In this document: one piece after another, positions 39,371-49,374 of the stretch
How the letters are laid out: every line of letters begins with the position of its first letter
How positions within the stretch are numbered: position 1 is the first letter of the stretch
Origin: Planctomycetota bacterium
GTDB lineage: Bacteria; Planctomycetota; Planctomycetia; Planctomycetales; Planctomycetaceae
Direction of reading: 5' to 3'
DNA length: 64,000 nt
Assembly: GCA_027618475.1 (NCBI GenBank)
Contig: JAQCEJ010000017.1
Span: 1 to 64,000 of the forward strand
Notes under the pieces: generated by a model
The model's database searches: none
Seen by the model: only the letters and a program-made list of their open reading frames with translations
What the model was told of the DNA's origin: nothing
Position numbers and translations under genes: made by a program

Positions 39371-39842
39371 GATGAAACGCTCGATGAGTTCTTGATTCAG
39401 ATAGAGAAGAAGATCAGGGAGGGCTCACGCCCCCCCTGCGCGAAGCAAACATTGTAGACCACGGAGATCGTGAGTCAATCTTCGAACCGATGTGAACGCC
39501 CTTTCCTGGAGAGAAGAGAGCGAAAACGGAGCGAACGCTCTGGACTGCGGCGTTTGACTCGTCATTCCAAAGTAAAAGTCTGGTAAAAACTGCAACACAC
39601 TCCGAACAAGGGCGCGCAAACCGGCTGCCTGTGTCATCGGTCAAGCCCTACTCACCTACGACCGATACCGATGCAGAAATCAAACGACTTTTTCGTCGTA
39701 ACATCTGATATTTTATGCGGTTCCGATAAAGAAGTAGGGACAGGTAAAGCCTGACTGTCTTTCCAATCGTAAGAATGGAAACGGGAAGGTTATCAATCTT
39801 GACCGATAATGACTGCCTCTTGTCTTCATCTTTGATTTATTG
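39371..39842. other. Intergenic region between argB and the microcompartment regulator
   Basis: About 470 bp holding divergent promoters for argB and the rightward compartment operon. Short minus-strand frames near 39414-39644 lack any family feature and look like degenerate repeat sequence. AT content rises sharply past 39800. Confidence 0.5.
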
Positions 39843-39878
39843 TGATATTTAATGACATATTTTGAAATAATATGACAT
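39843..39878 (+). promoter_or_regulatory. Four phased TGANAT direct repeats, candidate DeoR operator
   Basis: TGATAT (39843), TGACAT (39853), TGAAAT (39863) and TGACAT (39873) start exactly 10 bp apart, one helical turn. They lie in AT-rich DNA about 105 bp upstream of the deoR-type gene that heads the operon. Tandem direct repeats with about 10-bp period are a binding mode described for DeoR-family repressors; autoregulation is inferred. Confidence 0.65.
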
Positions 39879-39983
39879 TTATATTCCATTTACGATTGAA
39901 TTCCTTCATGTAAATGGTATTTTAGTTAAAGTAAGTTGAGTTTCTCGTCGGATTTTTCCAACTCAAGGAGGCCTTTAACAGCC

Positions 39984-40748
39984 GTGCCCATGCTTCTCGA
40001 TGAACGGCGACAAAACATCCTTCATGTCGTTGAACAGAAAGGATTTGTGTCGTTGCAAGAACTGGTTGATGCCATCGGTTCGAGTGAATCAACGATCCGA
40101 AGGGATCTCGAGTTTCTTGACAACATTGGGCAAATTCGCCGGACCCGAGGTGGAGCCAGCTATATCGGTGATTCGCTGACGGCATTGGAAGAACGACGGA
40201 CGAAGAGTTATCCCCAAAAACAGCACATTGCCAAAGCCGTTGCGGAATTCATTCAATCAGGAGAAACCGTGCTTCTTGATGGAGGAACTACCACTCTTGA
40301 AGTCGCCCGGCAGCTCATCGGCAAGCAGTTACAGGTCGTCACCAACTCGATGCCGATCGTCAACCTCTTGATCAATCAACCGTCAATCGAACTGATCGTC
40401 ATCGGCGGATATTTATATCCGAAAACGGGCGTGGCCTTAGGCGCCATGGCGACGTCCGCATTGGATGGAATTCATGCCCGTCGACTGGTAATGAGCGTCG
40501 GCGGCGTGAACGAAATGGGGTTGTACAACAGCAACTCGCTGTTGGTGGAGACCGAACGCAAGATGATGGAGTGTGCCGAAGAGGTCATTGCCGTCTGCGA
40601 CAGCAGCAAGTTCGGACATTCGGCATTAGCACACTTGTGCCCATTGAAAGCGGTTCATCACGCCGTCGTCGATGACGGCATCAGTGACGAATGGCAAGAA
40701 ATTTTAAAATCGCACGGCGTGCAGGTCACCGTCGTTCAAGTGGAATAA
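39984..40748 (+). CDS. DeoR/GlpR-family transcriptional regulator of the microcompartment operon
   Basis: About 254 residues. An N-terminal DeoR helix-turn-helix (RRQNILHVVEQKGFVSLQELVDAIGSSESTIRRDLEFLD) is followed by the sugar-phosphate-sensing DeoR C-terminal domain, with VLLDGGTTTLEVARQL and the VIGGYLYPKTGVALG block. Regulators of this type generally release DNA on binding a phosphorylated sugar, here perhaps fuculose- or rhamnulose-phosphate or DHAP. The GTG at 39984 follows AAGGAGG (39965-39971); ATG 39990 is an alternative. First gene of the operon, preceded by the phased repeats. Confidence 0.92.
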   Translation: MPMLLDERRQNILHVVEQKGFVSLQELVDAIGSSESTIRRDLEFLDNIGQIRRTRGGASYIGDSLTALEERRTKSYPQKQHIAKAVAEFIQSGETVLLDGGTTTLEVARQLIGKQLQVVTNSMPIVNLLINQPSIELIVIGGYLYPKTGVALGAMATSALDGIHARRLVMSVGGVNEMGLYNSNSLLVETERKMMECAEEVIAVCDSSKFGHSALAHLCPLKAVHHAVVDDGISDEWQEILKSHGVQVTVVQVE

Positions 40749-40764: not shown

Positions 40765-40787
40765 CACTGGCGGCTAGTCCGCCAGTG
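40765..40787. repeat. Perfect 9-bp hairpin after the regulator gene
   Basis: CACTGGCGG (40765-40773), loop CTAGT, CCGCCAGTG (40779-40787). No U tract follows, so it is a poor terminator. It could attenuate or punctuate transcription between the regulator and pduL, or be a dispersed palindrome. Confidence 0.7.
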
Positions 40788-40829: not shown

Positions 40830-41540
40830 ATGTCACAACTGGCAACACCATCCCGACTTTCCCGTACCGACATCGAACGGGTCGTGCGCGACGTCCTCTC
40901 AGGACATCTTGCAGGTTCGACCGGCAAACGAACCGAGCAACCCAACCCGCTGATGGTCAATATTTCGGCCCGCCATGTACACCTCTCTCAAGAGCACGTT
41001 GAAGTATTATTTGGTGCCGGTTCGCAATTGACCGTCTTCAAGCCGTTGTATCAGGAAGGATACTTCGCGGCGAACGAAACTGTCGCCGTTGTAGGGCCTC
41101 GATTGCGGATGATCGCCAACGTCCGCGTACTCGGTCCGTGTCGCGGGGCCTCGCAAGTTGAACTCGCCTTTACCGACGGCATATCGCTGGGCATCGATCT
41201 CCCCGTGAAAATCAGCGGCGATCTCGCAGGAACACCTGGATGCGTACTCGTCGGTCCAAAAGGAGTGATCGAACTTCAGTCGGGAGTCATCCGCGCGATG
41301 CGTCACGTTCACATGGGACCGGACGATCTCGACTATTTCAAATGTCAGAACGGCGACCACCTGCAACTCAAAATACACTCGCCCGGCTGTACAACGATTT
41401 TGGAAGACGTTGTCGTTCGGGCTTCAAAAGAAGTCAAACTCGAAGTCCATCTCGATACCGACGAAGGAAACGCAGTCAACTTGGATCGGGCTACGCATGT
41501 GGAACTGATCAAGCCCGAGAAATGTGGATGTAAGCATTGA
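40830..41540 (+). CDS. pduL: Phosphate acyltransferase, PduL type
   Basis: Microcompartment-type phosphotransacylase exchanging CoA for phosphate on an acyl-CoA, regenerating CoA in the lumen. Two beta-barrel halves with zinc-type histidines: [14 protein letters not shown] near residue 46 and [12 protein letters not shown] near residue 156. Residues 10-28 ([19 protein letters not shown]) form the amphipathic helix that targets PduL to shells, followed by a flexible linker. 236 residues, full length. Second gene of the operon, about 80 bp after the regulator. Confidence 0.95.
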
Positions 41541-41733: not shown

Positions 41734-42027
41734 ATGGCCAAGGCGATGGAAGCACTCGGAATGATTGAAACGAAGGGGTTGGTCAGCCTGATCGAAGCGT
41801 GCGACGCCATGCTCAAATCGGCGAACGTGCAGATGGTCGGCTGGGAAAAAATCGGCAGCGGATTGGTGACCGCATTTGTCGTCGGTGACGTCGCCGCTGT
41901 CAAAGCCGCCGTCGATGCCGGCGCCAGTGCCGCGAGCAAGATCGGCGAAGTCGTCAGCGTGCAGGTGATTCCGCGTCCGCACGAAGAGCTATCGAGCGTG
42001 TTGCCGACTCCCAAGGCCGCGAAGTAG
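41734..42027 (+). CDS. BMC-H hexameric shell protein (first)
   Basis: Single Pf00936 BMC domain, 97 residues, forming hexagonal facets of the compartment shell. It begins with the family signature [24 protein letters not shown] and includes the pore-loop region KIGSGLV and the [16 protein letters not shown] helix. A short C-terminal extension [10 protein letters not shown] follows. GGGAG lies about 12 nt before the ATG. It is adjacent to a second BMC-H gene; the two probably form the facets. Confidence 0.97.
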
Positions 42028-42116
42028 TCGACGACACCGACAAGCTCGTGAAATGAAAGCGTTATACGGTTGACACAACGTCAAAGCAACGTCCTGCAAC
42101 GATAAGGAATACCAGC

Positions 42117-42380
42117 GTGGAAGCGATTGGATTGATCGAAACCAAAGGGCTCGTCGCCCAGATTGAAGCCGCCGATGCGATGCTCAAAGCGGCAAACGTG
42201 AAACTCGTCAAACAGATTTCCATCGGCGGTGCCTACATCACCACCGTGATTCAAGGAGACGTCGGTTCGGTCCGCGCGGCGGTCGATGCCGGCGCCAGTG
42301 CCGCATCAAAAGTGGGCGATCTCATCAGTTCGCACATCATCGCCCGCCCGGATCAAAACCTGATGAATTATTTTATGTAG
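42117..42380 (+). CDS. BMC-H hexameric shell protein (second)
   Basis: 87-residue single-domain BMC-H, starting GTG with AAGGAA 7 nt upstream. EAIGLIETKGLVAQIEAADAMLKAANV and [18 protein letters not shown] are conserved. The pore loop reads SIGGA, unlike the first paralogue's IGSG, which may change pore chemistry. It lacks the C-terminal extension of its neighbour. Confidence 0.97.
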   Translation: MEAIGLIETKGLVAQIEAADAMLKAANVKLVKQISIGGAYITTVIQGDVGSVRAAVDAGASAASKVGDLISSHIIARPDQNLMNYFM

Positions 42381-42391
42381 AGGTTTACTAG

Positions 42392-42410
42392 CTCGAAGCG
42401 CAAGCGAGGA
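42392..42410 (+). repeat. CCCGAAGCGCRAGCGAGGG-type 19-mer, copy 1
   Basis: CTCGAAGCGCAAGCGAGGA, two mismatches from the copies at 43779 and 46245. In the spacer after the second BMC-H gene. Confidence 0.7.
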
Positions 42411-42420
42411 GGCTCTTATT

Positions 42421-42467
42421 CCTTCTCCCTCCGGGAGAAGGTGTCCGCAGGCCGGATGAGGGTGCCT
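42421..42467 (-). repeat. REP-like double hairpin, inverted copy
   Basis: CCTTCTCCCTCCGGGAGAAGG followed by GTCCGCAGGCCGGATGAGGG, the reverse complement arrangement of the copy at 41566. Confidence 0.85.
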
Positions 42468-42500
42468 TTGATGGATTGTCAAACGTAAAAGGCGAAAGAC

Positions 42501-42540
42501 ACCCTCACCCCGACCCTCTCCCAGTGGGAGAGGGAGAAAA
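42501..42540 (+). repeat. REP-like hairpin, shorter variant
   Basis: ACCCTCACCCCGA then CCCTCTCCCAGTGGGAGAGGG. It faces the inverted copy at 42421, giving a head-to-head pair in front of the kinase gene. Confidence 0.8.
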
Positions 42541-42575
42541 ATGCAAGACGTGTCCGAAGAGAACGGAATGTTGTT

Positions 42576-43766
42576 ATGAAGATTCTGGTGGCCAATCTGG
42601 GTTCGACCAGCTTCAAGTATCGATTGTTCGACTTTCCCAGCGAACGGCAACTGGCCCGCGGCGGCATCGATCGCATCGGTCAGCCTGTCAGCCATTGCGT
42701 TGTGGATATCGACACGCACCACGACCAGACCGATCGAAACATTCCCGATCACGCTGCGGCAGTGAGCATGTGCCTCGAACATCTCACGCATCCCGATTGG
42801 GGTTGCCTCAAGGACGTTTCGGAAGTGGCGGCAATCGGTTTCAAAGCGGTATTCGCCGGCAAGATGAGCGGCATTCGTATCGTCACCGAAGAACTGCTGC
42901 AAGTGATGGAGCAATTTTCGGACGTGGCCCCGGCTCACAATCCGCCGTATGCCAACGCGATGCGACAACTGCAAAAGGCTTTTCCGCAGATACCGCTCGT
43001 CGCGGCACTCGAAACCGCGTTTCACGAAACGATTCCGCCGGAAAATCGCGCCTATGCAATTCCGTACGAATGGCAAGAGGAATACGGTATTCAGCGTTGG
43101 GGATATCACGGGGCGAGCCATCGTTACATCGGCGGCCGGGTGGCGCAATTGATGCAGCGGGACGACCTTCGCGTCATTTCCTGTCATCTCGGCGGCAGCA
43201 ATTCGCTGAGTGCGTTGAAAGGGGGCGTCTCGCTGGCCAACACCCTGGGAATGAGTCCGCAATCGGGGTTGCCTCACAACAATCGCGTGGGTGACTTCGA
43301 TCCGTTTGCGTTACCGATTTTGATGAAGGAGTCCGGTAAATCGCTCACAGAACTGCTCGACGACCTCTCGAATAAGAGCGGCCTGTTAGGGCTCAGCGGA
43401 CTCAGCAGTGACGTCCGCGATCTCGAAGAAGCGGCGTCGAAGGGGAATCAACGAGCCGATCTTGCACTAAAAGTCTTCACGCAAGAGATCCGTCGCTATC
43501 TCGGAGGGTATCTCACGATTCTTGCCGGGGCCGATGCGATCGTCTTCACCGGAGGCATCGGCGAGAATAGTCAGCGCGTTCGTGCGGCGGTTTGCGAAAA
43601 CCTCGATTGGGCCGGCATACAGCTCGACGAACAGAAGAATCGATCGGCCAAGGGTGAGTGCGAACTCTCACATACCGACAGTCAGACGAAGATTTGGGTG
43701 ATTCCCACGAACGAAGAGTTGGTTGTCGCGAGACAATCGGCGGAAGCCGTGGGGCAGATGAAGTAG
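42576..43766 (+). CDS. ackA: Acetate kinase homologue of the microcompartment
   Basis: 396-residue ASKHA-fold acid kinase, expected to make ATP from an acyl phosphate (lactoyl- or acetyl-phosphate). Conserved parts are [33 protein letters not shown] (catalytic-type His), [10 protein letters not shown] (substrate Arg) and [13 protein letters not shown]. Two catalytic positions differ from classical acetate kinase: the GHRVVHGG arginine is Lys90 in GFKAVFAG, and the FDTAFH aspartate is Glu146 in LETAFH. No targeting helix is evident at either end. The family is certain; catalytic competence and substrate are open. Confidence 0.92.
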
Positions 43767-43778
43767 TCCACATACCAG

Positions 43779-43797
43779 CCCGAAGCGCGAGCGAGGG
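43779..43797 (+). repeat. CCCGAAGCGCRAGCGAGGG 19-mer, copy 2
   Basis: CCCGAAGCGCGAGCGAGGG, 12 bp after the kinase stop, identical to the copy at 46245. Confidence 0.8.
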
Positions 43798-43844
43798 TCT
43801 ACTGGCGAGAAAAGATAAATACAAAGTCGAGAGACAAAGAAAAA

Positions 43845-43891
43845 GGCACCCTCATCCGGCCTTCGGCCACCTTCTCCCAGAGGGAGAAAGG
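43845..43891 (+). repeat. REP-like double hairpin after the kinase gene
   Basis: GGCACCCTCATCCGGCCTTC then GGCCACCTTCTCCCAGAGGG and a GAAAGG end. Near-identical to the copy at 41566. Confidence 0.87.
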
Positions 43892-43953
43892 ATAAAACCT
43901 GACCCGAAAAGCAGATGCGGGTCTTAAAAAAATTGTACTGAATTGAGCAAACC

Positions 43954-44259
43954 ATGTTTCTAGCCCGTATCACTGGAAGTATCGTCTCCACGCAAAAGGT
44001 GGAATCGATGAAAGGCCAGAAGCTGCTCATCGTCGAACCGTTACGCGTCAACGAGCAAGACAAGAGCGACCTCAAACCAACCGGACGAACGTTCGTGACG
44101 GTCGACACTGTCGGGGCCGGTGAAGGAGAAGTCGTGCTCTGCGTGCAAGGCTCGAGCGCTCGTTTTACACCCGAAACCAAACCGTTGCCGGTCGACACGG
44201 CAATTATCGGCATCGTCGATACCGTGCAGATCGGCGCGAATGTCGTCTACAAATCTTGA
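43954..44259 (+). CDS. BMC-P pentameric vertex protein (first)
   Basis: 101-residue EutN/CcmL family protein (Pf03319), forming pentamers that cap shell vertices. It begins FLARITGSIVSTQKVESMKGQKL, with the vertex-family TVGAGEGEVVLCVQGSSAR core and the AIIGIVDTVQ end. One of three BMC-P paralogues in the operon, as in known PVM compartments. Confidence 0.96.
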   Translation: MFLARITGSIVSTQKVESMKGQKLLIVEPLRVNEQDKSDLKPTGRTFVTVDTVGAGEGEVVLCVQGSSARFTPETKPLPVDTAIIGIVDTVQIGANVVYKS

Positions 44260-44391
44260 AATTCTGGACGAAAGATTTTGACCTCAGAGACACAATGAAC
44301 TTCGAAGTCATCCCAAAAATTTAATGGGTCTTATTGTTGCCTCTGTGGTGAATTCTGACCAAATAGAGATATAGAGATAAGGTAACCAATA

Positions 44392-45819
44392 ATGCAAGCG
44401 ACCGAACAAGCCATCCGTCAGGTTGTCGAAGAAGTGCTGTCGAAGTTACGACAGCCGTATCCCGCGACAGCGAAGGCTGCGCCGAATCGCGATGGCGATT
44501 GGGGCGTGTTCCGTTCGGTCGACCAGGCGGTCGATGCGGCGACGGCTGCGTTTCGTCAACTTCAGGATGGTCCGGTTTCGCATCGCATGCAGATCATCGA
44601 GATCGTCAAGAAAATGTGTCTCGACAACTGCGAAGAATGGGGGCGTGCCGAACTAGAAGAGACCAAAATCGGTCGTCTCGATCACAAGATCGAAAAATTG
44701 ACGATCGTCAAACTCGTTCCCGGCGTCGAATTCATGCGAACCGACGCACAGAGCGGCGATCACGGCTTGACCGTCACTGAATACGCTCCGTTCGGAGTAA
44801 TCGGTGCGATCACCCCGGTCACGCATTCGCTACCGACGCTGGCGGGTAACGTCGTCAGCATGGTCGCGGGAGGGAATACTCTGGTCGTCAATCCGCATCC
44901 CGGAGGAGCCCGCATCGCCTGTGAAGGCGTTCGCCAGTTCAATAAAGCCATTCACAAGGCGATCGGCATCGAGAACGTGATTACGATCGTCGAACAGCCG
45001 ACGCTCGAATCGGCCGATCAGATTTTCAATCATCGTGGCGTCCGTTTGCTCTGCGTTACGGGGGGGCCGGGTGTCGCCCGTGCGGCATTGGCGAGCCGGA
45101 AGCGAGCGATCGTCGCCGGTCCCGGCAATCCACCGGTGGTCGTTGACGAAACCGCCGACATCGAAAACGCCGCTCGCTCAATCATCAAAGGAGGCTCGTA
45201 CGACAACAACCTCTTATGCATCGGCGAGAAAGAAGTCTTCGCCGTAGATGCCATCTTCGATCCACTCATGGAGGCTATGGGGCGCAATGGCGGATATCGC
45301 CTTAGCGACGATCAAATCGCCGCGCTCACGAAACTCGCGTTTTCGCCCCCGAAGGAACCAGGAGGGCACGCCGTCCTTAATCGCGATCTCATCGGTAAAG
45401 ACACGCAGGTGCTCGGCGAAATGATCGGCATTCGAATTCCGCCGGGGACCGATCTGCTCTACGGCGAAACCGACGTGAACAACCCGTTCGTTCCCGAAGA
45501 ACAGATGATGCCTTTCGTCCCCTTTGTGCGTTGCCGCAATGTCAACGAGGCGATCGAACGGGCTCTTAAATACGAACACAACTATCGTCATACCAGTTTG
45601 ATTCACAGCCGTAACGTGCGGACGATGTCGACGATGGGCAAGCTGATGGATACGACGTTGTTCATCAAGAACGGCCCTTGCATGGCGGGCTTAGGGCTCG
45701 GCGGCGAAGGCTATCTCTCATACAGCATTGCGACGCCGACGGGCGAAGGGGTAACGAACCCCATGACGTTCACCCGCGTCCGACGATGTGCGATGGTGGA
45801 CGATTTGCGGATTATTTAA
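44392..45819 (+). CDS. CoA-acylating aldehyde dehydrogenase (PduP/EutE type)
   Basis: 475 residues. Oxidises an aldehyde (by analogy lactaldehyde) with NAD and CoA to the acyl-CoA inside the compartment. The N-terminal 18 residues ([18 protein letters not shown]) form a targeting helix followed by a linker. The ALDH body shows [35 protein letters not shown] and the catalytic cysteine in [17 protein letters not shown] precedes the ATG. PduL and the kinase complete the route to acid plus ATP. Confidence 0.95.
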
Positions 45820-45837
45820 GAGAAGACAATACAAGCA

Positions 45838-45921
45838 GTTTCATAACCCTCTGGACGGCGGATAATTCCGGACAATTTGGATGATTATTCCTTCGCCAAC
45901 CGGGTTATGAAACCAGTTCTA
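45838..45921 (+). repeat. TTTCATAACC-type palindromic repeat, copy 2
   Basis: GTTTCATAACCCTCTGGACG at the left and CGGGTTATGAAACCAGTTCT at the right. Located in the spacer after the aldehyde dehydrogenase gene. It is followed by a CTCCCTTCGTCCAGAGGGAG hairpin at about 45932-45951. Confidence 0.9.
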
Positions 45922-45969
45922 GGGACCACACACCTCCCTTCGTCCAGAGGGAGATAGAGTAGTGATAAC

Positions 45970-46233
45970 ATGCAAGTCGCAAAAATTATTGGTTCGGCAA
46001 CATCGACTGTGAAGCATCCAACAATGATCGGATGGCGGATGGTCGTTGCTCAACCACTCGATCATCGCGGCGAGCCCGATGAATTTCCGATCGTGGCAAT
46101 CGACAATCTGGGGAGTTCGGTCGGCGATACGGTGATCGTGACCAGTGACGGCAAGTCGGTCCGCGAAATGATCGGTTCGCCGAATACACCGGTCCGTTGG
46201 GCCGTCATCGGTTTAGCAGACGACCGGTCTTAA
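45970..46233 (+). CDS. BMC-P pentameric vertex protein (second)
   Basis: 87-residue EutN/CcmL protein. VAKIIGSATSTVKHPTMIGWRMVVAQPL opens it, followed by the DNLGSSVGDTVIVTSDGKSV core and the RWAVIGLADD end. Shortest of the three paralogues. Confidence 0.96.
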   Translation: MQVAKIIGSATSTVKHPTMIGWRMVVAQPLDHRGEPDEFPIVAIDNLGSSVGDTVIVTSDGKSVREMIGSPNTPVRWAVIGLADDRS

Positions 46234-46244
46234 TGCATTTTATG

Positions 46245-46263
46245 CCCGAAGCGCGAGCGAGGG
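46245..46263 (+). repeat. CCCGAAGCGCRAGCGAGGG 19-mer, copy 3
   Basis: CCCGAAGCGCGAGCGAGGG just after the second BMC-P stop and 28 bp before the next ATG. Confidence 0.8.
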
Positions 46264-46290
46264 ATTTGAATTGAGCTTTGTGTGAGTGTG

Positions 46291-46989
46291 ATGGGGCAGG
46301 ACGAACAACTGATCGATCAAATCGTCGCAGGAATCCTGGCTCGGCTGGGACAACCGACGGCGATCGCTCAGCCCGTTTCCGACGCGACATCCGTAGAGAC
46401 GAAAGCGGCGAGGCCGGAACCCGCAACGATAGTCTGGAATGAAAACGTTATCACGGGAGATCAGGTCAACGAGCGATTTAAGGGAAATACGAAACTCGCC
46501 GGTGTACTGCACATTGGCAAGCAAACGATTCTCACCCCCTCGGCGCTCGACGTGTTGCGGTCGAAAGGTGTGAACTGGAAGCGGGTGTCGGAAACGACAC
46601 AACAAACAGCCGCCATCGTCTCACAAACATGGAAGATCATTTTGCAGCATGTGACACCGCCGGTGAAAACGGTAATGGAGGAATTGAAAACGACAGGATC
46701 GGTGAAATGGATTCAGGAAATCACGGGGACGTTAGATGAAGGAATTGCGACGGCGGTTACCCCCCTTTCACGAGCGGAAGTCGACGGAGTGATGATGTTA
46801 ACCGATCGCCCGCATGCGGCGGCGTGTTTGGCAAACCGTCATGCCGTGTTGCGAGCGGCCGTTGTGAAGGAATTCTCCGACGTGGCATTGTTGAAAAGAG
46901 AACTCGATCCGAACATGTTTTGTCTCACGCCGAAAGGCTGGGGTGGTTTTGCGTTACGCAAAGTGATTTTGGCGTGTGTTGAGGGATAA
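46291..46989 (+). CDS. Unassigned microcompartment protein with targeting helix and RpiB-like C-terminus
   Basis: About 232 residues, between two BMC-P genes. Residues 2-20 (DEQLIDQIVAGILARLG) look like an encapsulation helix followed by a Pro/Ala/Thr linker. The middle has LHIGKQTILTPSALDVLRSKGV, reminiscent of PduM-like BMC proteins. The last 75 residues (TDRPHAAACLANRHAVLRAA, then NMFCLTPKGWGGFALRKVIL) echo the second half of RpiB/LacA sugar-phosphate isomerases. No catalytic role can be assigned; it may be a lumen isomerase, core-assembly protein or degenerate homologue. GTG 46282 is an alternative start. Confidence 0.7.
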   Translation: MGQDEQLIDQIVAGILARLGQPTAIAQPVSDATSVETKAARPEPATIVWNENVITGDQVNERFKGNTKLAGVLHIGKQTILTPSALDVLRSKGVNWKRVSETTQQTAAIVSQTWKIILQHVTPPVKTVMEELKTTGSVKWIQEITGTLDEGIATAVTPLSRAEVDGVMMLTDRPHAAACLANRHAVLRAAVVKEFSDVALLKRELDPNMFCLTPKGWGGFALRKVILACVEG

Positions 46990-46991
46990 AT

Positions 46992-47014
46992 CCTTCTCCC
47001 GCCGGGAGAGGGGG
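46992..47014. repeat. REP-like hairpin fragment
   Basis: CCTTCTCCCGCCGGGAGAGGGGG, only the 3' hairpin of the element, directly after the preceding stop codon. Confidence 0.75.
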
Positions 47015-47025
47015 AAAAACCAAAC

Positions 47026-47044
47026 CCCTCGCTTGCGCTTCGGG
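47026..47044 (-). repeat. CCCGAAGCGCRAGCGAGGG 19-mer, copy 4 (inverted)
   Basis: CCCTCGCTTGCGCTTCGGG, reverse complement of the family with one A/G change, upstream of the third BMC-P gene. Confidence 0.8.
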
Positions 47045-47066
47045 CTGGTATAAGAAGAAACAGATC

Positions 47067-47372
47067 ATGCGAATCGGTAAAGTGATCGGCAAAGTGACGC
47101 TCGGGCGATGTCATCCCAGTTTGAAGGGAGCGACATGGATCATCGCGGCCCCGTTGTATGCGGCCGGACTGACCGACGATGCGCCGGCAAATGGCGACAA
47201 CATACAAGGCGAGCCCTTAGTCGCGTTCGATGAATGGGGCGCGGGGACGGGGGCCTTGATTGCATTGAGTGAGGGTGCCGAAGCAACAGCACCCTTTGCA
47301 CCAGAACAAAAACCGATCGATGCTTATAACACGGCGATACTCGATAACGTCTCGATCAAATTAAAACTGTAG
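47067..47372 (+). CDS. BMC-P pentameric vertex protein (third)
   Basis: 101-residue EutN/CcmL protein: IGKVIGKVTLGRCHPSLKGA start, a longer insertion (AAGLTDDAPANGDN), FDEWGAGTGALIALSEGAEA core and AYNTAILDNVS end. Completes the set of two BMC-H and three BMC-P shell genes. Its stop overlaps the start of a complex hairpin element. Confidence 0.95.
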   Translation: MRIGKVIGKVTLGRCHPSLKGATWIIAAPLYAAGLTDDAPANGDNIQGEPLVAFDEWGAGTGALIALSEGAEATAPFAPEQKPIDAYNTAILDNVSIKLKL

Positions 47373-47442
47373 CCGGCCTCTGTGAGGCCGGTCCGAGGTC
47401 GCAGACCTCGGCTACAAATCGCACAGACAGAAATTGCTGTGC
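47369..47442. repeat. Cruciform-type element plus GCACAG hairpin
   Basis: Outer arms GTAGC/GCTAC (47369, 47411) enclose two perfect 8-bp hairpins: CCGGCCTC-TGT-GAGGCCGG and CCGAGGTC-GCA-GACCTCGG. A third hairpin GCACAG...CTGTGC follows (47421-47442), shared with 23424-23445. It fills the spacer before the aldolase gene. Confidence 0.82.
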
Positions 47443-47480
47443 CACTGAAAAGCGGAAAAAACAACGGGAGCAACGGTCTT

Positions 47481-48359
47481 ATGTCCTCGTCATGGAACAG
47501 CGGTATTCACGACCGCAAACTCAAAGAAGAAATCTGCGAAATCGGCCGGCGCGTCTATAACAAAGGATTTGCCGCGGCGAACGACGGTAATATCTCGATT
47601 CGCGTCGGCGAAAACGAAGTTCTCTGTTCGCCGACGATGATCTGCAAAGGCTTTATGACCCCCGACGACATCTGCGCGGTCGATCTCGACGGCAATCAGA
47701 TTGCCGGCAAGCGCAAACGGACCAGCGAAGTGCTGCTGCATCTGACGATCATGAAACAGCGTCCCGATGTAAAGGCGGTCGTCCATTGTCATCCTCCCCA
47801 TGCAACGGCATTTGCCATTGCAGGGGAATCGATTCCGCAGTGCATCTTACCGGAAGTTGAAGTCTTTATGGGCGAGATTCCAATCGCTCCTTACGAAACA
47901 CCGGGGGGACAGTCGTTCGCCGATACCGTGCTGCCGTTTTTGACGGCGACGAACACGATCATTCTCAAAAACCACGGTACGGTGAGCTTCGGAAAGACCC
48001 TCGAAGAGGCGTATTGGAAAACCGAAATCCTCGATGCGTACTGCCGTATTCTGCTGCTTTCGCGTCAACTCGGTCCCGTGGAATACTTGAGCGAAAAGCA
48101 TTCACGCGAACTGCTCGATCTGAAGAAACGGCTTGGCTTCGACGATCCGCGCTTTCACGTTGAAGATTGCGATCTCTGCGGCAACAGTGCGTTTCGCGAA
48201 GGGTATTGCGAGAATCTGCCGCAGTCGAAGGCCTTCGGGGAGACGCCGGCCTATCCCGGTTATCTGCAGAAGGCCTCGTACGAAAATCAGATGGCACCCC
48301 ATCAGATGGAACAACTCGTCCAGGCGATCACCGAACAAGTCCTGGCCTCGATGAATTGA
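47481..48359 (+). CDS. Class II aldolase (fuculose/rhamnulose-phosphate type) of the compartment
   Basis: 292 residues. A zinc-dependent class II aldolase/adducin domain, predicted to split a 1-phospho-ketose into L-lactaldehyde and DHAP, as shown for PVM compartments. Visible are NDGNISIRVGENEVLCSPT, the zinc ligands in VVHCHPPHATAFAI, and LKNHGTVSFGKTLEEAYWKTE. Beyond the aldolase domain an extension ends in QMEQLVQAITEQVLASMN, a C-terminal targeting helix. A cysteine pair (CDLC) sits in the linker. ATG 47481 is used; the frame is open upstream through a hairpin element. Confidence 0.93.
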   Translation: MSSSWNSGIHDRKLKEEICEIGRRVYNKGFAAANDGNISIRVGENEVLCSPTMICKGFMTPDDICAVDLDGNQIAGKRKRTSEVLLHLTIMKQRPDVKAVVHCHPPHATAFAIAGESIPQCILPEVEVFMGEIPIAPYETPGGQSFADTVLPFLTATNTIILKNHGTVSFGKTLEEAYWKTEILDAYCRILLLSRQLGPVEYLSEKHSRELLDLKKRLGFDDPRFHVEDCDLCGNSAFREGYCENLPQSKAFGETPAYPGYLQKASYENQMAPHQMEQLVQAITEQVLASMN

Positions 48360-48363
48360 TACT

Positions 48364-48391
48364 TCTCCTTCTCCCGGAGGGAAAGGGAGAA
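48364..48391. repeat. REP-like hairpin fragment after the aldolase gene
   Basis: CTCCTTCTCCCGGAGGGAAA then GGGAG; a degenerate 3' hairpin only. Confidence 0.65.
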
Positions 48392-48447
48392 ATTCAAATA
48401 CAATGCACGCGAATGGCTTCGAGATTAAATAGGTGGAGCGAAAAACA

Positions 48448-49374
48448 ATGAAAGTCAGCATCATCGGTGGCGGGGGACTGGTCGGTTCTTGTGCGGGGTA
48501 CGCACTTCAACTCGGTCGCATCGTTCGCGAAATTGCCCTCATCGACGTCAATCAGGAAATGTGCCAGGGACAGGCTCTCGACCTGCTTCACGGAGCGGCG
48601 CTCGTCGCCGATCAAAAAATCTCCGCTGAAACGACCGCCGGTTGTGCCAATGCCGACGTGATTTGTATCACAGCAGGTTTGCGTCGCAAACCCGACGAAA
48701 GCCGGCTCGATCTCATCAACCGCAACGTGGCATTGTTTCGCAATATTCTCGCCGATCTTAAAAAGACCGGATATCGAAAAGACGCCATCGTCTTCGTGGT
48801 GTCGAACCCGGTCGACGTGCTGACGTATCTGGCAATGCACGAACTAGGTCTGCCCGCGAATCAGGTGATCGGCCTTGGGACCGTGCTCGATACGGTGCGC
48901 TTACGAAGTCTGATTTCCGATCGACTGCAAGTACCGCCGACGCAGGTTTCGGCCATCATCTTCGGCGAACACGGAGACAGCATGGTTCCTATCTGGTCGG
49001 CCGCACAAATCGGCGGTTTGCCGCTCGAAAAATATCCCGGCGTGACGGCGTCGTTCATCAGCGAAATCGAAAAACGGACGCGCGGCAGCGGTGCCGAAGT
49101 GATCAAGAAAAAGGGGGGAGCCGGTTTCGCCGTCGGCGTCTCAATCGCCGACGTCATTCATTCGATCGCCCTCGACCAGCGTCGCATCATGCCGGTCTCC
49201 TCGCTGCAAAACGGCGTCTACGGCATTCGCGATGTCTGCCTGTCGGTACCGACCGTCGTCGGCCGTAAGGGAGTCCTCGAACAGATTGAAATCGAACTCT
49301 GGCCGAAAGAGAAAACCGGCCTGCAGAACTCGGCGAAGGTGTTGCGTGAGACGGTGGATAAAGTTTTACAATAA
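48448..49374 (+). CDS. Malate/lactate dehydrogenase family protein
   Basis: 308 residues. NAD-dependent 2-hydroxyacid dehydrogenase of the LDH/MDH superfamily: the GGGGLVGSCAGYAL nucleotide loop, SNPVDVLTYLA, and catalytic FGEHGDSMVPIW. The specificity loop reads AGLRRKPDESRLDL; Arg80 occupies the position that is Arg in malate and Gln in lactate dehydrogenases. The role is likely NAD recycling linked to the aldehyde dehydrogenase. No targeting helix. GGTGGAG lies 7 nt before ATG 48448, which fixes the start. Confidence 0.92.
   Translation: MKVSIIGGGGLVGSCAGYALQLGRIVREIALIDVNQEMCQGQALDLLHGAALVADQKISAETTAGCANADVICITAGLRRKPDESRLDLINRNVALFRNILADLKKTGYRKDAIVFVVSNPVDVLTYLAMHELGLPANQVIGLGTVLDTVRLRSLISDRLQVPPTQVSAIIFGEHGDSMVPIWSAAQIGGLPLEKYPGVTASFISEIEKRTRGSGAEVIKKKGGAGFAVGVSIADVIHSIALDQRRIMPVSSLQNGVYGIRDVCLSVPTVVGRKGVLEQIEIELWPKEKTGLQNSAKVLRETVDKVLQ

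Follow-up and report, generated by a model that had tools for sequence, protein, structure and literature searches.

L. lactis FruR acts through adjacent 10-bp direct repeats, and E. coli GlpR has operators inside its target genes; both serve other sugars and have other motifs than the system described here. The operators of DeoR-family RhaR regulators are direct repeats with a period of 10–11 bp (PMC3870299). Chloroflexus aurantiacus RhaR binds four tandem TCGAAA repeats within 38 bp in mobility shift assays and is released by L-rhamnulose, not rhamnose (PMC3870299). E. coli DeoR, a DeoR-family repressor, loops between the separated operators O1, O2 and OE (PMC8053113). The PVM locus is defined by a class II aldolase, PduL, aldehyde dehydrogenase, BMC-H, several BMC-P, Ldh-type dehydrogenase, acetate kinase and a DeoR regulator (PMC4207490). 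In Planctopirus limnophila, PvmA/PpvmB gives rhamnose-inducible expression, and the authors argue for a repressor (PMC11958385).

The window, the whole stretch of 64,000 nucleotides analysed here, comes from a member of the Planctomycetaceae and carries such a locus. The regulator gene was followed by pduL, two BMC-H, acetate kinase, BMC-P, aldehyde dehydrogenase, two further BMC-P, class II aldolase and an Ldh-type dehydrogenase. All of the defining genes were present, and the locus fits this definition of the PVM locus for L-fucose/L-rhamnose. The regulator was assigned to the DeoR family by a predicted N-terminal DeoR HTH domain (PF08220, 60 bits, cut-off 21) and a predicted C-terminal DeoR sensor domain (PF00455, 156 bits, cut-off 31.8). 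None of the equivalog models named the regulator, and no solved structure was present among its close relatives. The features of the region are given below, the promoter and ribosome-binding elements being read from the sequence itself.

39800–39819, + strand: two canonical units, TGACCGATAA (start 39800) and TGACTGCCTC (start 39810), a weak and possible second operator
39833–39882, + strand: candidate main operator array, TGATTTATTG, TGATATTTAA, TGACATATTT, TGAAATAATA and TGACATTTAT, with a 10-bp period (pattern and motif scans)
39893–39902, + strand: in-phase unit CGATTGAATT holding the -35-like TTGAAT (39896–39901), putative promoter element
39918–39923, + strand: -10-like TATTTT, 16 bp past TTGAAT, putative promoter element
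39965–39971, + strand: Shine-Dalgarno-like AAGGAGG
39984–40748, + strand: DeoR-family regulator gene (pvmA-like), start GTG 39984 or ATG 39990 (PF08220 and PF00455 above cut-offs)
40098–40141, + strand: place of the intragenic array of relatives, where the window carries only a relic, TGACAACATT at 40118 (family comparison)
40765–40787, + strand: hairpin separating the regulator gene from pduL (structure and repeat search)
40830–41540, + strand: pduL-type phosphotransacylase, the first compartment gene (PF06130)
41734–49374, + strand: remaining PVM locus, with two BMC-H, acetate kinase, three BMC-P, aldehyde dehydrogenase, class II aldolase and lactate/malate dehydrogenase (domain matches)

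The distance from AAGGAGG to the two candidate starts was 12 nt for GTG 39984 and 18 nt for ATG 39990, so translation of the DeoR protein may begin at GTG. The hairpin may uncouple regulator expression from compartment expression. It belongs to a small dispersed repeat with three more partial copies in the genome (88–94% identical). A 235-aa open reading frame within the PVM locus (46282–46989) had no Pfam or NCBIfam match. The regulator was present in 50 of 59 relatives, and the DeoR–PduL–BMC-H–BMC-H order was conserved among orthologs at the family and class levels. One in-frame stop (TGA or TAA) was observed in the regulator orthologs of three genomes, L178 (G353), G432 and G433, which represents either an assembly error or a broken regulator.

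In the window, the hexamers TGATAT, TGACAT, TGAAAT and TGACAT begin at 39843, 39853, 39863 and 39873, respectively, and the 10-bp spacing that an earlier note on this DNA had claimed was verified at all four coordinates. When up to 3 mismatches were allowed, the four-unit pattern of 36 bases matched the window only here, readable in two registers that start at 39843 (0 mismatches) and 39833 (1 mismatch); 100 dinucleotide shuffles of the window yielded no match. The register at 39833 indicates a fifth, imperfect unit TGATTT, so that five units extend over 39833–39882. Across the 5.9-Mb genome, the relaxed pattern recovered the array, which was the only strong match, together with one site with 3 mismatches and nothing else; the reversed control pattern gave 0 matches in the whole genome. 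The pair of units at 39800 had a motif score of 10.3, compared with 9.8 for the 95th percentile of control regions, and began 43 bp (4.1 turns) before 39843.

The conservation of the repeats was evaluated upstream of orthologous regulators. TGA pairs at a 10-bp lag occurred 37 times in the 250 bp upstream of 29 orthologs, the window being left out, versus 4.4 ± 2.0 times in shuffles (z = 16), and the lags of 20, 4 and 14 were raised too. Expectation-maximisation on non-redundant upstream regions, with the window excluded from training, yielded the 10-bp periodic motif TGACAGAWWT TGACAGATTT TGATTGAWWT, which scored 25.5 bits at 39843 in the window. A motif model was trained on 29 loci (L002–L030) and tested on 44 other non-redundant loci; the best match of the whole locus, on both strands, fell within 250 bp upstream of the regulator in 39 of them. 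When the trained model was applied to the 64-kb window, the top three matches were registers of the array, and the next was far lower (14.6). Literal searches for TGANAT mostly failed in relatives, which indicates a broader motif. The unit conserved in the family reads TGAYWGAWWT, its TG recurring at 10-bp intervals, and TGANAT is the local version of this genome. A canonical-consensus search (TGAYWGA units) of this genome gave no matches, and hence no wider regulon was found.

The 10-bp signal persisted in other families of the class, with a degenerate motif and a 21-bp lag besides. In L138–L162, which belong to these families, the TGA pairs ahead of the regulator gene also peaked at 21 bp (two turns, z = 7). 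Moreover, 10-bp phased TGA pairs were found upstream of ten deep DeoR relatives (z = 8), which would fit an arrangement common to the DeoR family. Absence of the repeats from orthologous loci, which the earlier note had named as the outcome that would count against its reading, was not observed; the repeats were present there and their 10-bp phase was kept. Its reading of a phased, one-face operator of DeoR type for the compartment operon and its regulator is supported in part, with the unit corrected from TGANAT to TGAYWGAWWT. With a period of 10–11 bp, a position upstream of the operon and conservation among orthologs, the array has the predicted character of a DeoR-type direct-repeat operator.

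In the window, the main array precedes the likeliest transcription start by approximately 40–90 bp, a position that is also compatible with activation. A scan for consensus sigma-70 promoters was uninformative, and TATTTT at 39918 was absent from its list. The alignment of 67 upstream arrays, anchored on the motif, had conservation over offsets 0–33 and, further out, a weak T-x-A-A-A-A-T at 45–51, which stands 17 bp past TTGAWW within the third unit. Hence, the last unit appears to contain the -35 element in many relatives, and this position suits repression by occlusion. The window differs from many relatives in that its main array lies further upstream, ahead of the likeliest -35 (39896).

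A second array, missed in the earlier note, was found inside the regulator gene of most relatives and was helically phased to the upstream array. It was the only recurrent match of the model outside the upstream region and fell at codons 36–50, with the array itself placed at codons 39–49. This array, (CGACGGGATT) TGGAATATCT TGACGGAATT GGACAGATTC, is in frame with R-R-D-L-E-Y-L-D-G-I-G-Q-I-R and coincides with part of the HTH domain of the regulator. In 84 non-redundant genes, the strongest synonymous bias of the regulator gene was at codons 39–44, and CTT at codon 43 was the most anomalous (56/84 versus 9.6 expected, z = 16). Counted without a motif model, CTT occupied codon 43 in 62/83 genes (75%) of the family outside a subclade with inverted arrays, against a Leu background of 6%; the counts were 9/22 in the inverted subclade and 2/25 in other families with the same residue. 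Synonymous codons were then permuted within each gene. Against these shuffles, the intragenic site had z = 15, exactly at the best-scoring position of the gene, and 47/83 genes scored above 12 bits versus 4.6 expected. An intragenic signal above the synonymous shuffles was not seen in the genes of other families.

The distance between the two arrays was explored in 105 loci with less than 90% identity, 55 of which had both arrays. The spacings were 198–199, 206–211, 221, 229–234, 239–243 and 272–273 bp, that is, 19, 20, 21, 22, 23 and 26 turns of 10.5 bp (R = 0.73, phase -0.5 bp), and 49 of the 55 loci were within 2.1 bp of integer turns. For the 13 loci with an upstream array and no intragenic site, R was 0.18 and 4 were near integer turns; permuting the presence labels gave p < 0.0002 for this difference. 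The rule was fixed before more family genomes were added, and the 8 non-redundant new loci had spacings of 199, 210, 221, 231, 231, 231, 233 and 247 bp (R = 0.67). A register artefact of the 10-bp unit was rejected as the source of the phasing, since differences of 21–23, 31–34 and 41–42 bp occur and the period peaks at 10.6, not 10.0. Shared ancestry as the sole source was reduced by collapse to 39 tree groups (R = 0.70; free scan from 8 to 14, best period 10.6, p < 0.001) and by thinning to less than 70% protein identity (n = 21, R = 0.62), and relatedness still somewhat inflates these statistics. At the family level, the two arrays are therefore spaced by integral turns (R = 0.70–0.73 at 10.5 bp), as predicted for a looping operator pair. 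The intragenic place of the window scored 6.4 bits, no better than synonymous shuffles of the same gene (p = 0.19), and its distance from the upstream array was 265 bp, or 25.2 turns. The pair of units at 39800 may instead fill the second role at this locus. Hence, looping is not supported at the window locus; the upstream operator is claimed for this genome, and the loop is not.

One subclade (L080, L081, L091, L094, L100, L108–L110, L248, L257 and relatives) carries its arrays on the other strand. Most members had two minus-strand upstream arrays, at about -103 and -61 (spacing 41–43) or about -103 and -49 (spacing 52–54), corresponding to about 4 and 5 turns. The presence of the same intragenic site in this subclade was tested and unsupported; its members were largely without the intragenic array and had the second upstream array instead. 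It thus seems that lineages differ in how they maintain a pair of matched arrays at the promoter.

The upstream array is very probably the operator of the local DeoR-family regulator PvmA, and that PvmA is a repressor rather than an activator is nearly as probable. Each 10-bp unit would take one winged-helix domain of a PvmA oligomer, with all domains on one DNA face. Without inducer, PvmA would sit at or beside the -35 region and repress its own gene and the PVM operon for L-fucose/L-rhamnose, and a sugar (phosphate) intermediate would free it from DNA. The analogy with RhaR and the sensor domain family suggest that this effector is a ketose of the pathway, either free or phosphorylated. Most members of the family carry the second array in the pvmA coding sequence, on the same face and 17–26 turns downstream; one oligomer, which would have to be a tetramer or larger, may bridge both arrays, loop the promoter and shut the operon off. 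The whole-turn distance predicts such looping between face-matched operators, and an operator pair of this kind is likely in the family. We consider it similarly likely that the Planctomycetaceae hold two helically matched arrays, one written in synonymous codons of the regulator's own DNA-binding segment, for a whole-turn repression loop, and that one lineage swapped this for a pair of inverted arrays, both upstream and spaced by 4 or 5 turns.

If the upstream array were the whole operator, the intragenic signal would reflect coding constraint or codon habit, and there would be no loop. The segment does encode the conserved RRDLEYLD-IGQIR, codon bias near 5' ends is general, and the window's own intragenic site is weak. 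However, neither constraint nor habit accounts readily for CTT at codon 43 in 62/83 genes over a 6% background and in only 2/25 elsewhere with the same residue, for an excess over synonymous shuffles (z = 15) that falls exactly where the gene scores best, or for helical phasing confined to loci with the intragenic site (R 0.73 versus 0.18, p < 0.0002). An operator of the upstream array alone is thus rather unlikely.

The direction of control was also considered. E. coli FucR, a DeoR relative, is annotated as the activator of the L-fucose operon (NF007720, well below its cut-off here), and PvmA might likewise bind upstream of -35, with the array as an activation site; the main array of the window does precede the likeliest -35 (39896). 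Activation is improbable, however, since the P. limnophila PvmA/PpvmB reporter gave strong expression in E. coli even when rhamnose was absent, which its authors take to favour a repressor (PMC11958385), the third unit contains -35 in many relatives, and the intragenic site suits repression. More improbable still is recognition of the repeats by another protein, or a role as bent promoter DNA with phased A/T and no specific operator. The array of the window is A/T-rich, 10-bp phased A/T tracts bend DNA, and the units touch -35 in many relatives, but the conserved letters are TG steps rather than A-tracts, there is one site per genome adjoining the DeoR gene, and the arrays are inverted in one subclade, which a -35 element would not tolerate. 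Repression by PvmA from the upstream array remains the preferred reading.

The phylum concerned has almost no regulatory biology, and the unit provides a concrete candidate operator sequence for PVM microcompartment operons. The DNA-binding codons of the regulator gene double as its own predicted binding site, and the spacing rule supplies natural-variation evidence for DNA looping that can be read from sequence alone. The earlier note knew of no such motif for these compartments; no PVM operator sequence was found in the literature searched, and the arrangement itself is known from the DeoR-family RhaR (PMC3870299). A phased intragenic partner array was not described in the literature searched, most subscription papers lying outside its scope.

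The regulator and operon of the P. limnophila PvmA/PpvmA–PpvmB system are orthologous to those of the window, and the accessible part of that publication gives predicted -35/-10 elements only and describes no operator (PMC11958385). In L134 and L027 both the upstream and the intragenic array are strong, the arrays there being TGGCATGTTT TGCAATAATT TGGAAAATAA; they share the reported 46-bp pvmA–pvmB gap (PMC11958385) and hence probably represent the Planctopirus genus. If they represent that locus, the reporter holds both arrays, and the arrangement could explain the one inducible Planctomycetes expression system. E. coli DeoR differs in having single operators approximately 300–600 bp apart, with no arrays of 10-bp units and none phased inside its own gene (PMC8053113). 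The repeats of C. aurantiacus RhaR also precede the gene of a DeoR-family regulator at the head of a sugar operon, there for rhamnose; the accessible text reports no intragenic partner (PMC3870299). Given this precedent of tandem 10–11 bp repeats, the upstream array joins an already known kind of operator, with TGAYWGAWWT and a compartment operon here in place of TCGAAA, free enzymes and no compartment (PMC3870299).
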